64,000 nt of DNA from an uncultured bacterium (lineage in GTDB: Bacteria > Bacillota > Clostridia > Lachnospirales > Lachnospiraceae): positions 1 to 64,000 of the forward strand of contig CALZQA010000002.1 of assembly GCA_945828315.1 (NCBI GenBank), given 5' to 3'. Both the position numbers and the translations under genes were made by a program. This document shows positions 595 to 57,823 of this stretch, one piece after another (positions within the stretch are counted from its first letter, which is position 1; each line of letters opens with the position of its first letter). Below the pieces are notes generated by a model. That model worked only from the letters and a program-made list of their open reading frames with translations, made no database searches and was not told the origin of the DNA.

Positions 595-1653
595 ATGCAT
601 ATGGCAGATGCGTTGCTGGCACCGTCGGTTGCCGCTACGATGTACGTTGCTTCGGGAGCGGTGGCAGGCATTTGTGTGAAAGCGTTGAAAAAGGATGAAG
701 ATATGGCAAAGCTGCCGACCATGGCAGTGACGGCTGCGCTTGTTTTTGCCGGTCAGATGATCAACTACACGATTCCCGGTACGGGGTCTTCCGGACATTT
801 GTGCGGAGGCATGCTGCTTTCGGCACTACTCGGCCCGCAGGCGGGCTTTTTGTCGATGGTCGTTATCCTGGCGATCCAATGCCTGTTCTTTGCGGATGGC
901 GGACTGATGGCGCTGGGCGCGAACTGTTGGAATATGGCGTTTTACGGATGTTTTATCGGATATTATCTGATCTGGAAACCGCTCATGCACAGCCGGCTGT
1001 TTGCGGGAAAGAAGAATGCTGCCCGTGTGAAGATCGCGCTGTCATCTGTTCTGGGTTGTATCATCACGCTCCAGATGGGCGCATTTTCGGTCGTTCTGGA
1101 GACGTCCGCATCCGGTGTCACAGAATTGCCCGTTGGTACCTTTGTCGGAATCATGCAGCCGATCCATCTTGCGATCGGTCTTGTGGAGGGATTGATCACT
1201 GCGGCAGTGCTGCTGTTTATCTATGAGGCACGTCCGGAGCTGCTTACAGAGTTGGACGAGGGAACTGAAAAGGCAAAGAGCAGATGCTCGCTCAAAACAA
1301 CGCTTGCGATCCTTACGGCGGTTGTCGTAGTTGTGGGCGGCGGTCTTTCTCTGTTTGCCAGTGGAAATCCCGATGGGCTGGAATGGTCGATGTTTGGAAA
1401 TTCCGAGGCGGGATACAGCGAAAATATGGGTCTGGATGAGGAAGCTTATGGTATTTCCAGCAAGACCGCAGATGCTGCGGAGGCGATCCAGGAAAAGACA
1501 GCGTTTCTCCCGGACTATGCCTTTAGCGGAAGCGACAGCGCGGCAGGCACCAGTGTATCAGGGCTGGTCGGTTCTGCGATCGTGGCGGGCGCTGCGGTTT
1601 TGATCTGTATGCTGGGCGGATTTTTCCGCAGAAAAAAGAGTTGTCATGGATAA
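595..1653 (+). CDS. cbiM: Energy-coupling factor Ni/Co transporter S component, CbiM fused to a C-terminal CbiN/PDGLE domain
   Basis: N-terminal MHMADALLAP (metal-binding start), multiple TM segments, C-terminal SGNPDGLEW; followed by cbiQ and cbiO. Confidence 0.88.
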   Translation: MHMADALLAPSVAATMYVASGAVAGICVKALKKDEDMAKLPTMAVTAALVFAGQMINYTIPGTGSSGHLCGGMLLSALLGPQAGFLSMVVILAIQCLFFADGGLMALGANCWNMAFYGCFIGYYLIWKPLMHSRLFAGKKNAARVKIALSSVLGCIITLQMGAFSVVLETSASGVTELPVGTFVGIMQPIHLAIGLVEGLITAAVLLFIYEARPELLTELDEGTEKAKSRCSLKTTLAILTAVVVVVGGGLSLFASGNPDGLEWSMFGNSEAGYSENMGLDEEAYGISSKTADAAEAIQEKTAFLPDYAFSGSDSAAGTSVSGLVGSAIVAGAAVLICMLGGFFRRKKSCHG

Positions 1654-11501: not shown

Positions 11502-13832
11502 ATGAAGCAGTTAAAAATACGAGTCTATGGCATCGTGCAGGGCGTGGGTTTCCGCCCCTTTGTCAGCCGTCTTGCGGCGGCAAACAGTCTGCGCGGCAGC
11601 GTCTGTAACAAGGGCTCTTATGTGGAGATCATTGTACAGGGAGAGACGCCTGCACTGATGCGATTTCAAAAAAATCTGAAGACCATGGCCCCGGAGCGGT
11701 CTGTCATATTAAAAACAGATGTGACAGAGCAACAGCCGGGGAAATTTACAGATTTTCGGATCATCGAGAGCAAAAAAAGATCCGGTGACATTTTCGTGTC
11801 TCCGGATATCGCTATCTGTCCCACTTGTAAAACTGAATTATTTGATAAGAACAATCGCCGTTATCTGCATCCGTTCATCAACTGTACGGCCTGCGGACCG
11901 CGGCTGACGATCTTAAAACAGATGCCCTACGACCGTGCGCGGACAACAATGTCGGAGTTTGACATGTGTCCGAAGTGCGCGGCGGAATATGAGACCATGG
12001 GCGACCGCCGTTACGATGCGCAGCCGGTATGCTGTCCGGACTGCGGGCCGCAGGTGTATCTCATGGATGAACCGCAGATCCGCGGCACAGAAGCGATCCG
12101 GCGCACCAGAGAGGTGATCCGGGCGGGTGGTATTGCAGCAATTAAGGGCATCGGAGGCTTTCATCTGTGTTGTGATGCCGGGAATGAAGCAGCGGTGGTG
12201 CTGCTCCGAACCCGAAAAAGCCGTCCGGCAAAACCTTTTGCGGTGATGGCGAGGGATCCGGAGACGGCAAAACGTATCTGTGAGATCGATAACGCGCAGG
12301 CGGCGCTTCTGGACAGTCCGCAAAAGCCCATCGTGATCTGCCGGAAACGGGGTGAGGAAGTCGCGCCGTCAGTGGCGCCGGACAATCCGACGCTGGGCGT
12401 GATGCTGCCCTATGCGCCACTGCAATTACTGTTGTTTGATGACCCGGAGGATGTGTCTGCTGCGGATTTCCCGGATGTCCTTGTCATGACAAGCGGAAAT
12501 CGTGGTGGTGCGCCAATCTGTCGAAATGATGCGGAGGTATCGGAACAACTGGCAGAGCTGTGCGATATCATCCTGTCGAACGATCGGGATATACTCATTC
12601 GTGCGGATGATTCCGTGATAGAGACATCTGACGGAGAACCGTACATGCTGCGTCGCTCCCGTGGATATGCGCCGCTGCCGACGGCGGTATCTCAGGAATG
12701 GCAGGGACAGGTGCTGGCGGTGGGAGGAGAACTGAAGAATACGTTTTGTATCGGAAAGGACAGCTTTTTCTACCCGTCGCCCTATGTGGGAGACTTGTCG
12801 GATCTGCGCTCGGAGCGGGCGTTGACAGAGACGGTCACGCGCATGCTGGAACTGTTTGAGGCAAAACCGGCAGCAGTGGCATGCGATCTTCATCCGGATT
12901 ACCGGGCATCGGCGTATGCAAAAACGTTAGGGCTGCCAGTTTTTGAGGTACAGCACCACTATGCCCATATCTTATCATGCATGGCAGAGAACGATGTGCT
13001 GGACGAGCGGGTGATCGGTGTTGCCTTTGACGGAACCGGCTACGGCATGGACGGCAGTGTGTGGGGCGGCGAATTTCTCGTCGCGGGCATTGACGGCTTT
13101 GAACGGACGGGCACTCTGGCACCCTTCATGCAGATGGGCGGTGACGCGGCGGCGAGAGAGGGTTGGCGCATTGCGGTGTCCATGCTGCTCAAGCAGTACG
13201 GGAAAAGTGAGGCGGCAGCTTTGGCATCACAGCTGGGTCTGTGTGACACCAATACGGTGGAACTACTGGCAGCAGCACAGGCAGCAGGCCTGGGCTGTGT
13301 GACATCCACGAGCGCGGGACGGTTGTTTGACGCAGTGAGTTCACTGCTGGGCATCCGGCGCGAGTCTACGTTTGAGGGTGAGGCGGCAACTGCGCTACAG
13401 TACACCGCATGTCGAAGGGACGTTCCTTTTGCCGCGGTCTGGCGGGGGGATGCTTCTTCTGTCATGCCCTGTCTGGAGGATGCTACGCGTGATGTAATTG
13501 TCACGTTGGACCATGCGCCGCTTGTTGACCGGTTGATTCAGGGGCGGATCGCAGGCGAACCGGTGGAGAAGCTGGCGTATCTGTTCCACGAGGCGCTGGC
13601 AGAGGGGATCAAAACCACCTGCGAAACGATCCGAAAGCGCACAGGTCTGACCACCGTTGTGCTTTCCGGCGGCTGCTTCTGTAACCGTCTGCTATTGCAT
13701 CTGGCACAGGAACGACTGAAGAACGCAGGCTTCCGGGTGCTGACACATCACCGGATCCCGGCAAATGACGGAGGGATCGCGCTTGGACAGGCAATCTACG
13801 CGATGCGGCGGCTACAGGACGCAGGGCATTGA
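11502..13832 (+). CDS. hypF: Carbamoyltransferase HypF
   Basis: Acylphosphatase start GIVQGVGFRPFV, zinc fingers CPTC/CTACGPR/CPKC/CCPDCGP, YrdC-like GIGGFHLCCDA, Kae1-like HHYAHILSC, VLSGGCFCNRLLL. Confidence 0.96.
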   Translation: MKQLKIRVYGIVQGVGFRPFVSRLAAANSLRGSVCNKGSYVEIIVQGETPALMRFQKNLKTMAPERSVILKTDVTEQQPGKFTDFRIIESKKRSGDIFVSPDIAICPTCKTELFDKNNRRYLHPFINCTACGPRLTILKQMPYDRARTTMSEFDMCPKCAAEYETMGDRRYDAQPVCCPDCGPQVYLMDEPQIRGTEAIRRTREVIRAGGIAAIKGIGGFHLCCDAGNEAAVVLLRTRKSRPAKPFAVMARDPETAKRICEIDNAQAALLDSPQKPIVICRKRGEEVAPSVAPDNPTLGVMLPYAPLQLLLFDDPEDVSAADFPDVLVMTSGNRGGAPICRNDAEVSEQLAELCDIILSNDRDILIRADDSVIETSDGEPYMLRRSRGYAPLPTAVSQEWQGQVLAVGGELKNTFCIGKDSFFYPSPYVGDLSDLRSERALTETVTRMLELFEAKPAAVACDLHPDYRASAYAKTLGLPVFEVQHHYAHILSCMAENDVLDERVIGVAFDGTGYGMDGSVWGGEFLVAGIDGFERTGTLAPFMQMGGDAAAREGWRIAVSMLLKQYGKSEAAALASQLGLCDTNTVELLAAAQAAGLGCVTSTSAGRLFDAVSSLLGIRRESTFEGEAATALQYTACRRDVPFAAVWRGDASSVMPCLEDATRDVIVTLDHAPLVDRLIQGRIAGEPVEKLAYLFHEALAEGIKTTCETIRKRTGLTTVVLSGGCFCNRLLLHLAQERLKNAGFRVLTHHRIPANDGGIALGQAIYAMRRLQDAGH

Positions 13833-13950
13833 GGACGCATTTTTTCGCGCGTGCCCGGTCACACGGGACAGAAGACGCATGTTTTAAATGAGGATCTGTT
13901 TGGTGCGTTGAAGTGCACCGTCAAAATGCGATGACAGAAAAGGAGAATAC

Positions 13951-42933: not shown

Positions 42934-44175
42934 GTGGCAGGTAAAAATATGGAAAAGATCCGCTGCAGCTTCTGCGGAAAATCCCAGGAGCAGGTGCGCA
43001 AGCTGATCGCAGGTCCGGGCGGAGCCTATATCTGTGATGAGTGTGTGGATATCTGTGCGGAGATCATTGAGGAAGAGTTTGAAGATGAGCCGATCCAGCC
43101 GAAGGCAGATTTTGAGATCAATCTTCAAAAACCGAAAAAATTAAAAGAATTTTTGGATGAATATGTGATCGGACAGGACGAGGCCAAAAAGGTGCTGTCC
43201 GTGGCAGTTTACAATCATTATAAGCGTATTATGAGTGAGCAGGAGAACGACGTGGAACTGCAGAAGAGCAATATTCTGATGCTCGGTCCCACCGGTTCCG
43301 GAAAGACACTCCTTGCGCAGACATTGGCGCGTGTCTTGAACGTGCCCTTTGCGATCGCGGATGCGACGACGCTGACGGAGGCCGGTTATGTGGGCGAGGA
43401 TGTGGAAAATATCCTGTTAAAGCTCATTCAGGCGGCTGACTATGATATTGAGCGTGCGCAGTGCGGAATCGTCTACATTGATGAGATCGACAAGATCACA
43501 AAGAAATCAGAGAATGTTTCCATCACCCGTGATGTTTCCGGTGAGGGTGTACAGCAGGCGCTTTTAAAGATCCTGGAGGGAACACAGGCCAGTGTTCCGC
43601 CTCAGGGAGGCAGAAAGCATCCACAGCAGGAACTGATCCAGATCGATACCACCAACATTCTGTTTATTTGTGGTGGTGCGTTCGATGGCCTTGAGAAGAT
43701 CATCGAGAATCGTATGGATCAGAAATCTATTGGTTTTAATGCGGAGATCCGGGAGAAAAATGAGAAGAATACCGGTGAACTGTTCAAGCATGTGATGCCG
43801 CAGGATTTCGTGAAATTCGGACTGATCCCGGAGTTTGTGGGACGTGTGCCGGTGACAGTATCACTTGATTCGCTGGATAAAGATGCATTGATGCGCATTT
43901 TAAGAGAGCCGAAGAATTCCCTGATCAAGCAGTATACGAGACTGTTTGAGCTTGACGGGGTAGAACTTTACTTTAAGGATGATGCGGTAGAGGCTATCGC
44001 AGATAAATCTTTGGAGCAGAAGACCGGTGCCAGAGGACTCCGTTCTATCATGGAGCATACGCTGGAGGATCTGATGTATGAGATCCCTTCAGATGAGGAT
44101 ATCATTGCATGCACGATCACGCGTGATGCCGTGGAATTTACCGGGGCACCGGAGATTGAGCGCAAGGGTGCGTAA
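42934..44175 (+). CDS. clpX: ATP-dependent Clp protease ATP-binding subunit ClpX
   Basis: [44 protein letters not shown]. Confidence 0.97.
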
Positions 44176-44189
44176 CAAATGCGTGAAGC

Positions 44190-44224
44190 CCGCCTGTAGG
44201 GATGCCTTACAGGCGGCTTTTTGT
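44190..44224 (+). terminator. Terminator after clpX
   Basis: GCCCGCCTGTA-GGGATGCCT-TACAGGCGGCTTTTTG. Confidence 0.8.
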
Positions 44225-44782
44225 TATTTTGCAGCCAGGTTACGCGAAGATAGGAATATGCCTATGCGCTATCCTCTGCATGACAGTGCCGACAGTCATT
44301 TGATGCGCCCTTTCTCTGCGTGACAGTTTTTGCAGTCTGTTATGCTCGACGGGTAAATCACACGGTCAGGCTCGGAGTCCAAGCAAGTACAGCTTGGCTC
44401 CGTAGCCTTTTGGTTGGCTTATTAACGTTCATTCCGCGTGAACCCGTCGCATAAACGACTGTCAAAAACTGTCATGCAGGATGCGGTCGCACAAAATACC
44501 TGTCGGAGTTGACATGCAGAGCACAGTCGCATATTTGATATGCTGTCTTGGTCGGGCTGCAGAATCGCAAAAACCTTTAGCAGAGAATTTGTCAGGTCGG
44601 TTATGCGTTTGTATTCTGCGTGCCGGTATTTTGCAGTCATTTATGCGACGGGTACGCGCGGATATAACGTGTCGGAATCTCTCATCAGGCAGCAGAGAAA
44701 AGCCGGTTTTGCTTTTACTCTGTGCCACCTCGCGTGATTTACCCGTTAAGCATAACAGACGGCAAAATACCGGCATGTAGAA
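44225..44782. repeat. Degenerate inverted/tandem repeat array between clpX and lon
   Basis: Copies of GTGATTTACCCGT(T/C)(A/G)AGCATAACAGAC(T/G)G..AAAxAC(T)(G)(T/G)CA(C/T)GCAG in both orientations (44315-44363 minus, 44438-44478 plus, 44615-44655 minus, 44734-44775 plus). Confidence 0.75.
44369..44412 (+). terminator. Strong hairpin inside the repeat array, terminator-like
   Basis: GGCTCGGAG(T)CCAAGC-AAGTACA-GCTTGGCTCCG(T)AGCCTTTT. Confidence 0.55.
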
Positions 44783-44833
44783 GAAAGACGTATAATCGAT
44801 CTGACAAAGAATAAAAGATAGAAAGGCAACAAA

Positions 44834-47158
44834 ATGACAGACATCATCGTACAACTCCCCGCCGTCGCACTGCGTGGCATGGTGATCCTGCCGGGCATGA
44901 TGATCCATTTCGACATCAGCAGACCCCGCTCGATCCATGCAGTAGAGCAGGCGATGATGGAGGACGAAAAGATCTTTCTTGTGGCACAGCGCGATCCCGA
45001 TACGGACGATCCCACACAGGAAGAATTATATAATATCGGGACGATCGCACACATCAAACAGGTCATTAAGATGCAGGGTGGAGTCATCCGCGTACTCGTC
45101 GAGGGAGAGGAGCGCGCAGAGCTGGGAGAACTGCTGGATGAAGAAAAATTCCTGAAGGTACAGGCGATCCGTTTTGATCCGGAGGAGATGGAGGAACTTT
45201 CCGACATCGCAAAGCAGGGTATGCTGCGGGGCGTGCAGGAGACCTTTGCCCGTTATGCGGCAGTAAATGGCAAGATCGGCAAGGAATTTCTGCGTCAGAT
45301 CAGCGAGCGCACGGATCTGGACGGAACGCTGGATGTGATCGCAAACAATCTTGCTGTGGATTTCCGTGGAAAACAGCGCCTGCTGGAGGCGGTGACACTG
45401 ACGGAGCGATACGAGGTGCTCGTGGCAATGCTCCTGCAGGAGATGGAGATCATCGCTGTCAAAAACGAATTTCAGGAAAAAGTGAAGGCGGAAGTGGATA
45501 AAAACCAGAAGGAATATCTGCTCCGTGAACAGATGAAGGTGATCCGTCAGGAGCTGGGCGAGGATAATACGGAGAGCGATGTTGATAATTTCCGTGCAGA
45601 GCTGAAAAAACTTAAGGCAGACGCAGAGATCAAGGAAAAGATCAGCAAGGAGATCGATCGCTTTAAAAACATTCCGTCCAATTCTTCGGAAAGCGCTGTC
45701 CTGCGCGGATATATCGAGACGCTGCTGGAGCTTCCGTGGAAAAAGGTGTCCAAGGACAATAAGGATCTGGCCCATGCAAAGCAGGTGCTGGAGGAGCAGC
45801 ATTTTGGGCTGGAAAAGGTCAAAGAGCGTATGCTGGAATTTCTTGCTGTGCGCAATCTGACCAGCAAGGGTGACAGCCCGATCATCTGTCTGGTGGGCCC
45901 TCCCGGCACCGGAAAGACAAGCATTGCGCGCTCGGTGGCAGAAGCGCTGAATAAAAAATACGTGCGCATCTGTCTGGGCGGTGTGCGTGATGAGGCGGAG
46001 ATCCGGGGACACAGGCGTACATACGTTGGTGCTATGCCGGGGCGTCTGGTGACAGCGCTGCGCACGGCAGGCGTCAGCAATCCGCTGATCTTATTGGATG
46101 AGATCGACAAGGTCAGCAGCGACTACAAGGGAGATACCTCATCTGCGCTGCTGGAGGTGTTGGACGGCGAGCAAAACCAGAAGTTCCGTGATCATTATGT
46201 GGAGCTTCCGGTGGATCTTTCGGAGGTATTGTTTATCTGTACGGCGAATTCCACAGAAACGATCCCGCGGCCGCTCCTTGACCGTATGGAGATCATTGAG
46301 GTGACGAGCTATACGGCAAATGAGAAGTACCATATTGCCACGGATCATCTGCTGCCCAAGCAGATGAAGAAGAACGGTCTGAAGGAAGGGCAGCTGGATA
46401 TCAGCCGGGCTGCGATGGAACAGATCATTTCCGGCTATACGAGAGAGGCGGGCGTCCGCAATCTGGAGCGAAAGCTGGGCGAGATCTGCCGGAAAGCCGC
46501 ACGTCGTATCTACGAGGGTAAAAAAGAGCAGATCAAGATCACCGCAGGAAACCTGGAGCAGTATCTGGGCAAGGCCAAATACAGCGAGGAGAAAGCGGGT
46601 GCAACCAATGAAGTGGGCATCGTGCGCGGTCTGGCATGGACCAGCGTAGGCGGTGTTACACTGGAGGTAGAGGTAAACCTGATGCCGGGTAAAGGCGAGA
46701 TGAAGCTGACCGGTCAGATGGGAGATGTGATGAAGGAGTCTGCACAGACGGCACTCAGCTTTGTGCGTTCTGTCAGCGCGGACTATGGCATTGAAAAGGA
46801 ATTTTTCAGCGAGCATGATATCCATATCCATATACCGGAAGGAGCTGTGCCAAAAGACGGTCCGTCTGCGGGTATCACAATGGCATCTGCGATGCTCTCG
46901 GCAGTGACGGGAACGCCTGCGCGGGCAGATGTTGCAATGACCGGTGAGATCACGCTGCGGGGGCGCGTGCTGCCTATCGGAGGCTTGAAAGAGAAACTGC
47001 TGGCGGCAAAAAATGCCGGAGTGAAGACTGTATGTATCCCGAAGAAGAATGAAAAGGATCTGGAGGAGATCTCTGCGGAGATCACGAGAGGACTTTCCAT
47101 CATTCCGGTGGAGCATATGAATGAAGTATTAGAGGTTATTTTAGCAAAGGAGGCATGA
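44834..47158 (+). CDS. lon: ATP-dependent protease Lon
   Basis: GPPGTGKTSIARSVA; DGPSAGITMASAMLSAVTG. Confidence 0.97.
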   Translation: MTDIIVQLPAVALRGMVILPGMMIHFDISRPRSIHAVEQAMMEDEKIFLVAQRDPDTDDPTQEELYNIGTIAHIKQVIKMQGGVIRVLVEGEERAELGELLDEEKFLKVQAIRFDPEEMEELSDIAKQGMLRGVQETFARYAAVNGKIGKEFLRQISERTDLDGTLDVIANNLAVDFRGKQRLLEAVTLTERYEVLVAMLLQEMEIIAVKNEFQEKVKAEVDKNQKEYLLREQMKVIRQELGEDNTESDVDNFRAELKKLKADAEIKEKISKEIDRFKNIPSNSSESAVLRGYIETLLELPWKKVSKDNKDLAHAKQVLEEQHFGLEKVKERMLEFLAVRNLTSKGDSPIICLVGPPGTGKTSIARSVAEALNKKYVRICLGGVRDEAEIRGHRRTYVGAMPGRLVTALRTAGVSNPLILLDEIDKVSSDYKGDTSSALLEVLDGEQNQKFRDHYVELPVDLSEVLFICTANSTETIPRPLLDRMEIIEVTSYTANEKYHIATDHLLPKQMKKNGLKEGQLDISRAAMEQIISGYTREAGVRNLERKLGEICRKAARRIYEGKKEQIKITAGNLEQYLGKAKYSEEKAGATNEVGIVRGLAWTSVGGVTLEVEVNLMPGKGEMKLTGQMGDVMKESAQTALSFVRSVSADYGIEKEFFSEHDIHIHIPEGAVPKDGPSAGITMASAMLSAVTGTPARADVAMTGEITLRGRVLPIGGLKEKLLAAKNAGVKTVCIPKKNEKDLEEISAEITRGLSIIPVEHMNEVLEVILAKEA

Positions 47159-57590: not shown

Positions 57591-57662
57591 GTGTGATCCT
57601 CACTTCCCTGCCTGTTTCTGGCTATTAGTATACCTCATTGCAGAGCACAGATGCAAGTCCGC

Positions 57663-57711
57663 TGTGATTTACCCGTTAAGCATAACAGACTGTTGAATAC
57701 TGTCACGCAAA
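57663..57711 (+). repeat. Dispersed copy of the clpX-lon repeat
   Basis: GTGATTTACCCGTTAAGCATAACAGACTGTTGAATACTGTCACGCA; first 27 nt identical to 44734-44760. Confidence 0.85.
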
Positions 57712-57823
57712 GGAGGGTGCATGGCTGATTGACAAAGTACTGTTGATATTGAAAAACGTGGTGGGATATGTCATACTTAATTTGAATTTTGAAAAAATCT
57801 TGCGGCAAAGGAGCGTGTATATC

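Follow-up and report, generated by a model that had tools for sequence, protein, structure and literature searches.

Two copies of a probable new, genus-restricted family of interspersed extragenic palindromes lie between clpX and lon in an uncultured Lachnospiraceae bacterium

The window analysed here is a stretch of 64,000 nucleotides of a contig from an uncultured bacterium of the Lachnospiraceae. In this window the spacer that separates clpX from lon contains, after the intrinsic terminator of clpX, two long palindromes, both imperfect, which are oppositely oriented and face away from each other (Table 1). A similar clpX terminator was also found in the clpX-lon spacers of two congeners (G001 and G004), both of which are without the element. 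The initial annotation had described the spacer as noncoding repetitive DNA present in both orientations, and this description was borne out. The repeat matches that it cited are real and far above chance (CM E-values of 5e-30 and 3e-27, from a model that contains the window sequences), and a BLAST search of positions 44225-44830 against the own genome, which is independent of the CM, returned 17 matches, several of them self-matches. The proposed array of a 40-bp unit had to be replaced: the four listed units are the 5'/3' arms or half-sites of two long hairpins, 44438-44478 and 44315-44363 belonging to element 1 (minus strand), and 44615-44655 and 44734-44775 to element 2 (plus strand). The bulged hairpin noted at 44369-44412 is present as the apical helix of element 1, and element 2 has an equivalent. 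A repeat does exist at the tandem step described between 44275 and 44315; it is a partial duplication of the outer arm of element 1 and not the basic unit. L104 and L111 have tandem end repeats of a comparable kind. At these two loci, short tandem arrays including the outer end sequence GCGCGTCCGG lie beside copies of the element. The statement that the spacer is not a CRISPR agrees with the two inverted imperfect palindromes and the absence of a constant direct repeat, and no recognisable IS is present either.

Table 1. Positions of the genes, the terminator and the palindromic elements in the window. E-values of the purpose-built model CM R3 are rough, and the model includes the window copies.
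Feature	Position	Strand	Basis or remark
clpX	42934-44175		stop at 44175
clpX intrinsic terminator	44190-44222	+	terminator scan; upstream of, and distinct from, both hairpin elements
Extra tandem 40-bp copy of element 1 outer arm (TCTGCATGACAG... / TCTGCGTGACAG...)	44268-44315	-	sequence
Element 1, whole hairpin (arms and core)	44294-44500	-	fold; outer limits approximate
Element 1 core, 115 nt	44340-44454	-	CM R3, 112.2 bits, E 2.6e-27
Element 2, whole hairpin	44588-44808	+	fold; inverted repeat; ends 25 nt before lon start codon
Element 2 core, 115 nt	44641-44755	+	CM R3, 122.3 bits, E 5.4e-30
Element 2 apical helix P3 (GGCAGCAGAG-AAAAGC...GCTTTT-ACTCTG-TGCC)	44688-44726	+	coordinates approximate
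lon	44834-47158		start at 44834
Half copy of the family (3' half-site and arm)	57661-57722	-	BLAST; pattern match, 3 mismatches

The fold of element 1 on the minus strand reached -103.9 kcal/mol, compared with -54.4 +/- 4.3 in 200 shuffles (z -11.4), and that of element 2 reached -121.8 kcal/mol, compared with -58.8 +/- 4.1 in 200 shuffles (z -15.3). In its single-stranded form each copy of the family, termed family A, is predicted to be a rod of about 200 nt, in which a constant core of about 115 nt is carried on long arms. The alignment gives the pattern TTATGC-GA-CGGGT...ACCCG-TCGA-GCATAA with the apical helix P3 for the core of element 1, and nearly all full copies of the family have a core of 113-117 nt. 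From the outside in, the core comprises the helices TTATGC/GCATAA, CGGGT/ACCCG and CGCGG/CCGCG, followed by P3 (GGCA-CAGAG-AAAAGC). A GA-containing internal loop (GA/GNNA) follows the TTATGC helix, a second one (TTC/GATTY) follows the CGGGT helix, and a variable, weakly constrained linker of about 25 nt separates the CGCGG/CCGCG helix from P3. In the alignment of 30 cores, 97.4% of cells were paired. Two-sided changes were found in 17 of the 32 core pairs and in 73 cells, compared with a mean of 15.6 after shuffling and at most 15 for slid structures; the covariation score was 0.277, compared with 0.122 for shuffled alignments and at most 0.069 when the structure was slid. Across the family, compensatory double changes affected 12 of the 15 pairs of P3, and subfamilies exchange whole helix segments, e.g. 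CGGGT/ACCCG for CGGAC/GTCCG at thyA. These comparisons strongly support a conserved and covarying secondary structure of the core. The conservation follows the base pairs; conservation as a protein-coding gene was what the initial annotation had named as evidence against itself. A candidate pseudoknot, in which the linker motif GCCAGTC would pair with the 3' arm, was rejected, as this pairing was seen, by eye, in some copies only.

The genome of the window (G000) was compared with nine congeners. Matches to the core CM numbered 8 in G000, 12 in G001, 10 in G006, 7 in G008, 4 in G002 and 1 in G003, the low scorers including partial copies, and zero in the four other congeners; BLAST of the spacer region likewise found matches in five of the nine. 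Outside the genus, none were found in a family sample of 249 genera or in an order sample of 392 genomes from 174 genera (the latter with a refined model), in searches whose stricter filters miss weak matches. Collections of phages, plasmids and viral contigs gave zero matches. In the GTDB genome collection, exact matches to the half-site were confined to three MAGs, two of them labelled Lachnospiraceae and one only 'bacterium'. An Rfam match, named beforehand in the initial annotation as evidence against it, was not found: positions 44180-44840 gave nothing up to E 10, and across the window only tRNAs reached the gathering score. No description of such an element in Lachnospiraceae was found in the open-access literature. 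Every genome used is a draft assembly, and those that have a public title are MAGs; repeats are places where assemblies break or chimerise. Two further features were observed during these searches. An intergenic repeat, CTCCGCGAAAAGCGTAGCGGATACTAAGGATTTTTCTTCGTG... and its inverse, recurs beside several copies of family A (L025, L024, L104, L113 and L115), and locus L009 of G006 contains, at 644-694, an Rfam match to the DUF3800-XI RNA (61.5 bits) that is unrelated to the element.

All copies examined lie between genes. Where the context of the matches was inspected, a scan of the genus with the half-site pattern had picked up elements and half copies and nothing else. The neighbouring genes, which include uvrA, uvrC, thyA, rpsJ, serS and lon, form no common regulon. 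Orientation relative to transcription is mixed (about 7 plus and 13 minus sites in a hand tally, a difference that is not significant), and the element also sits in a few spacers between divergent genes. Head-to-head pairs, with their 5' ends facing, occur at clpX-lon, uvrB-uvrA and serS. The pair at uvrB-uvrA consists in G000 of a minus copy followed by a plus copy, whereas in G002 the same two copies are present as an inverted block. Mixed orientation and this inversion speak against a leader or small RNA that depends on one strand. A structured RNA of this kind, acting on lon and other genes either as a cis-regulatory leader or attenuator or as an array of small RNAs, would agree with the conserved internal loops, the strong covariation and the position of the plus core of element 2, 79 nt upstream of lon. 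It would also agree with the strand preference of the fold: in 24 of 31 copies the plus strand forms the more stable structure of the two (Wilcoxon p 0.0009, the copies not being independent). A scan of the window for promoters gave none beyond chance expectation, and the orientation tally, the lack of a common regulon or an Rfam match and the restriction to one genus speak against this explanation, which we consider improbable. The array of small RNAs suggested by the initial annotation is thus not upheld, since neither a conserved promoter nor an Rfam match accompanies copies whose orientation to the genes is mixed.

The arms outside the core are copy-specific in sequence, yet complementary. 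Matching two-sided arm changes between orthologs were seen by eye at uvrB-uvrA (G000 and G006) and thyA-folA (G001 and G006). Either selection on pairing or template switching during replication can produce such in-step changes, so covariation in the arms is possible through template switching without selection. Presence of the element varies among species: at uvrB-uvrA the operon is compact and without an element in G004 and G009, and the element is also absent in G003 and G005; the thyA-folA gap in G000 is about 10 nt without an element, and the mnmG-rsmG gap in G008 is short. Half copies, each keeping a half-site, were found in the window (Table 1) and at L016 and L017, the one in the window being apparently orthologous, judged by eye from flank similarity, to the full copy L023 in G008. 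Empty sites and half copies indicate that many copies are dispensable. Several loci have long inverted arms with an outer signature ACAGCG.../...GCGCGTCCGG, and the outer ends repeatedly contain GCGTCC, where it forms part of arms that are paired or variable. No clean target-site duplication was found at the thyA, mnmG, rpsJ, fmt or polC sites; at polC, TGTG repeats flank the missing part and fit a slippage deletion as well as an insertion with a possible 4-bp duplication. Tandem copies occur in L106.

Some of these observations would also suit a site acting at the level of DNA, in which a dimeric or nucleoid protein (gyrase, HU/IHF-like or SMC-like) would recognise the inverted half-sites TTATGC-N-CGGGT-N-CRCGCGG independently of orientation, either in a cruciform or as a pair of half-sites in duplex DNA. 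Mixed gene orientation, the block inversion, the half-sites retained in half copies and the few occupied spacers between divergent genes fit such a function. Helix P3 and its compensatory changes are unneeded for half-site binding, however, and duplex DNA does not predict the better folding of the plus strand, so that we regard this explanation as quite unlikely.

By gene context, copies occupy the same place across species at uvrB-uvrA (four species), thyA-folA, uvrC-hprK and clpX-lon (three species each), as well as at iorB, cheR and others; ortholog assignment from context was partly by eye. Core identity in ten ortholog pairs was 0.74-0.90 and mostly 0.78-0.90, with 0.90 for G000/G006 and 0.83 for G000/G001 at uvrB-uvrA, and 0.88 at thyA, cheR and iorB. 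Most flanks of the orthologs were 0.06-0.4 identical, compared with 0.30 for random sequence; exceptions were a small number of 3' flanks extending into coding sequence (0.86 at iorB). Four-fold sites of the adjacent genes were 0.41-0.56 identical, and third positions of uvrA 0.57-0.65. Within the core, ortholog identity was 0.93 at paired sites, 0.75 in internal loops, 0.83 in the P3 loop and 0.60 in the linker, which is an internal near-neutral control. Copies at uvrBA, thyA, cheR and iorB are each closest to their own orthologs, and these ortholog-specific signatures make homogenisation among paralogs by gene conversion unlikely there; at loci where the nearest relative is not the ortholog, conversion or separate insertion is possible. 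Core conservation far above that of four-fold sites, next to flanks that are almost random, suggests purifying selection on the core in those copies that have been retained. Template switching could restore pairing, yet the sequence would then drift, as in the arms, and conservation of the core is not accounted for. A separate observation concerns the clpX-lon spacers L093 (G008) and L094 (G003), which differ by one mismatch over 590 bp of intergenic sequence, from within the clpX terminator to the start of lon, while their flanking genes are about 80-85% identical between the two species; this spacer reflects either horizontal exchange or an assembly chimera.

The constraint bears on the explanation of family A as a purely selfish MITE, that is, a non-autonomous IS derivative moved in trans, without host function, whose similarity reflects recent spread. 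Interspersed, palindromic, intergenic copies with variable presence at orthologous sites, half copies, the tandem copies in L106 and the possible duplication at polC are what such an element would leave. Neither an autonomous partner nor shared IS ends nor a consistent duplication was seen, though, and cores conserved to this degree beside near-random flanks, with locus signatures retained, are unlike neutral decay after insertion. We therefore hold a purely selfish element to be unlikely.

Hairpins of this family also contain other modules. At four loci of G006 the apex of P3 is replaced by a conserved hairpin, family B (GATTTTGCCCGACCGAGC...CGACGAGGGTAGGGGAATCGA). Family B also occurs alone, often in terminator-like stems with an A-tract and a T-tract (bidirectional), with short versions in G000, and was not found outside the genus among 298 genera sampled. 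Its apical motif is GATTTTGCCCGACCGAGC...GACGAGGG...GGGGAATCGA, in a form of 113 nt or a short form, and copies were recorded at G000:C34:25492-25605 (L150/L158), on contigs C7, C74, C92 and C37 of G000 (L159-L162), at L151 and at L153-L155. Nested within B, at L098 and L162, is a third module (GGGAACGAGGTCTGGGATGACCTCG...); it has the form GGGGGAACGAGGTCTGGGATGACCTCG...TTTGACCCGACCGAAGCG, at about 1039-1315 (minus) in L098 and about 1522-1640 in L162. At two A sites (L100/L028 and L099/L004), a B-containing apex in G006 corresponds to a plain apex in G001 on related arms, which indicates that the apex is exchangeable while the arms stay. Tentatively, modules nested in the order A, B and third might thus insert into or replace hairpin apices, the core being exapted and kept by host selection irrespective of orientation on self-repairing arms, which would make it a nucleic-acid motif of a new kind; as a complete account this seems rather unlikely. 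At one intergenic site upstream of rpsJ, an A hairpin is present in G000 (L014) and a B hairpin in G002 (L151), and neither in G008 or G001. Finally, positions 13777-13866 of the window (minus) gave a weak model match of 18.5 bits with ATGCGTC...CGTGTGACCGGGCACGCGCG, possibly a remnant; in G006 the gene beside it apparently lies next to a decayed A/B copy as well (L152).

The explanation we prefer, and think probable, is that the clpX-lon spacer carries two copies of a new, genus-restricted family of interspersed extragenic palindromes that spread as a mobile element and whose core is constrained. To judge from sequence comparison, family A seems to be a previously uncatalogued, REP/ERIC-like family of about 200 bases, belonging to a genus of gut Lachnospiraceae, that has acquired a use. 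It would have spread as a non-autonomous mobile palindrome, after which replication template switching, selection on pairing, or both, may have kept the arms complementary and inverted segments. The core would most likely have been retained for the use of the hairpin at gene borders, as a transcript-end or intercistronic stem-loop; a cruciform or protein-binding DNA site is the next candidate use. Palindromic repeats of bacteria have mostly been regarded as selfish or as generic hairpins, and the orthologous copies described here permit a direct test, since little has changed in the core whereas four-fold sites and flanks are nearly saturated. Within one element, sequence constraint (core) is separable from maintenance of pairing (arms), and motifs A and B, each of about 115 nt, can be tested for a binding partner. 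Moreover, the family shows nested hairpin modules accumulating at gene borders.

REP units are palindromes of 20-40 bp with short stems and an unpaired terminal GTAG/CGTC tag (Di Nocera et al. 2013, PMC3733652). They are interspersed and extragenic, often downstream of genes, and paired in opposite orientation; REP dimers have been found inserted inside other palindromes, and CGTC REPs lack a dedicated transposase (PMC3733652). The REP/BIME- or MITE-like character proposed in the initial annotation stands in so far as family A, like REP/BIME/REPIN, consists of interspersed extragenic palindromes with oppositely oriented, head-to-head pairs at three sites. Strict membership does not follow: family A lacks a GTAG/CGTC-tagged 20-40-bp unit and a clean target-site duplication, and differs from REP/BIME in its length of about 200 bp, its internal conserved 115-nt core and its copy-specific arms. 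An ordinary REP/REPIN family dispersed by a RAYT would agree with extragenic head-to-head palindromes near gene ends and nested in palindromes, as for REPs (PMC3733652). Besides the size of the unit and the missing tag, it is opposed by the absence of a match to the Y1/RAYT transposase (PF01797) in G000, G006 and G003, all of them copy-bearing and MAGs that are 93-98% complete. This contradicts RAYT dependence in the genome of the window and makes the explanation highly improbable. Insertion into palindromes is not without precedent, as some IS elements use REPs as their target (PMC1525189).

Structured RNAs share with family A a covarying structure; their fixed orientation to a promoter or target gene was not found in it. 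The mitochondrial double-hairpin or repetitive hairpin-forming elements (e.g. PMC2800124) may be likened, by analogy, to family A as mobile-looking intergenic hairpins defined by structure, although family A would differ in being bacterial, larger and equipped with a defined conserved core. Template switching homogenises hairpin arms (PMC8794818) and inverts spacers (PMC8604942), and the arms, block inversion and orientation flips of family A may share this reverse-complement, multi-base compensatory mechanism. It is a mutational mechanism and not an element family, and leaves the conservation of the core sequence unexplained; family A may provide a natural example, in a bacterium, of hairpins maintained by template switching. 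Other structured intergenic repeats are ERIC, NEMIS/Correia, RUP and YPAL (listed in PMC2267715) and EFAR (PMC3733652). Family A resembles them as a long intergenic stem-loop of the class of about 100-200 bp that is spread at the species or genus level, and is set apart from them by description, the sequence comparison having been made through Rfam, which is possibly incomplete for these families. ERIC-type families have a consensus over their whole length, whereas in family A the core alone is conserved, the arms differ yet pair, and modules are nested. Its place and shape, like those of REP/BIME, ERIC, NEMIS and RUP, nevertheless put the proposed new family among the extragenic palindromes.
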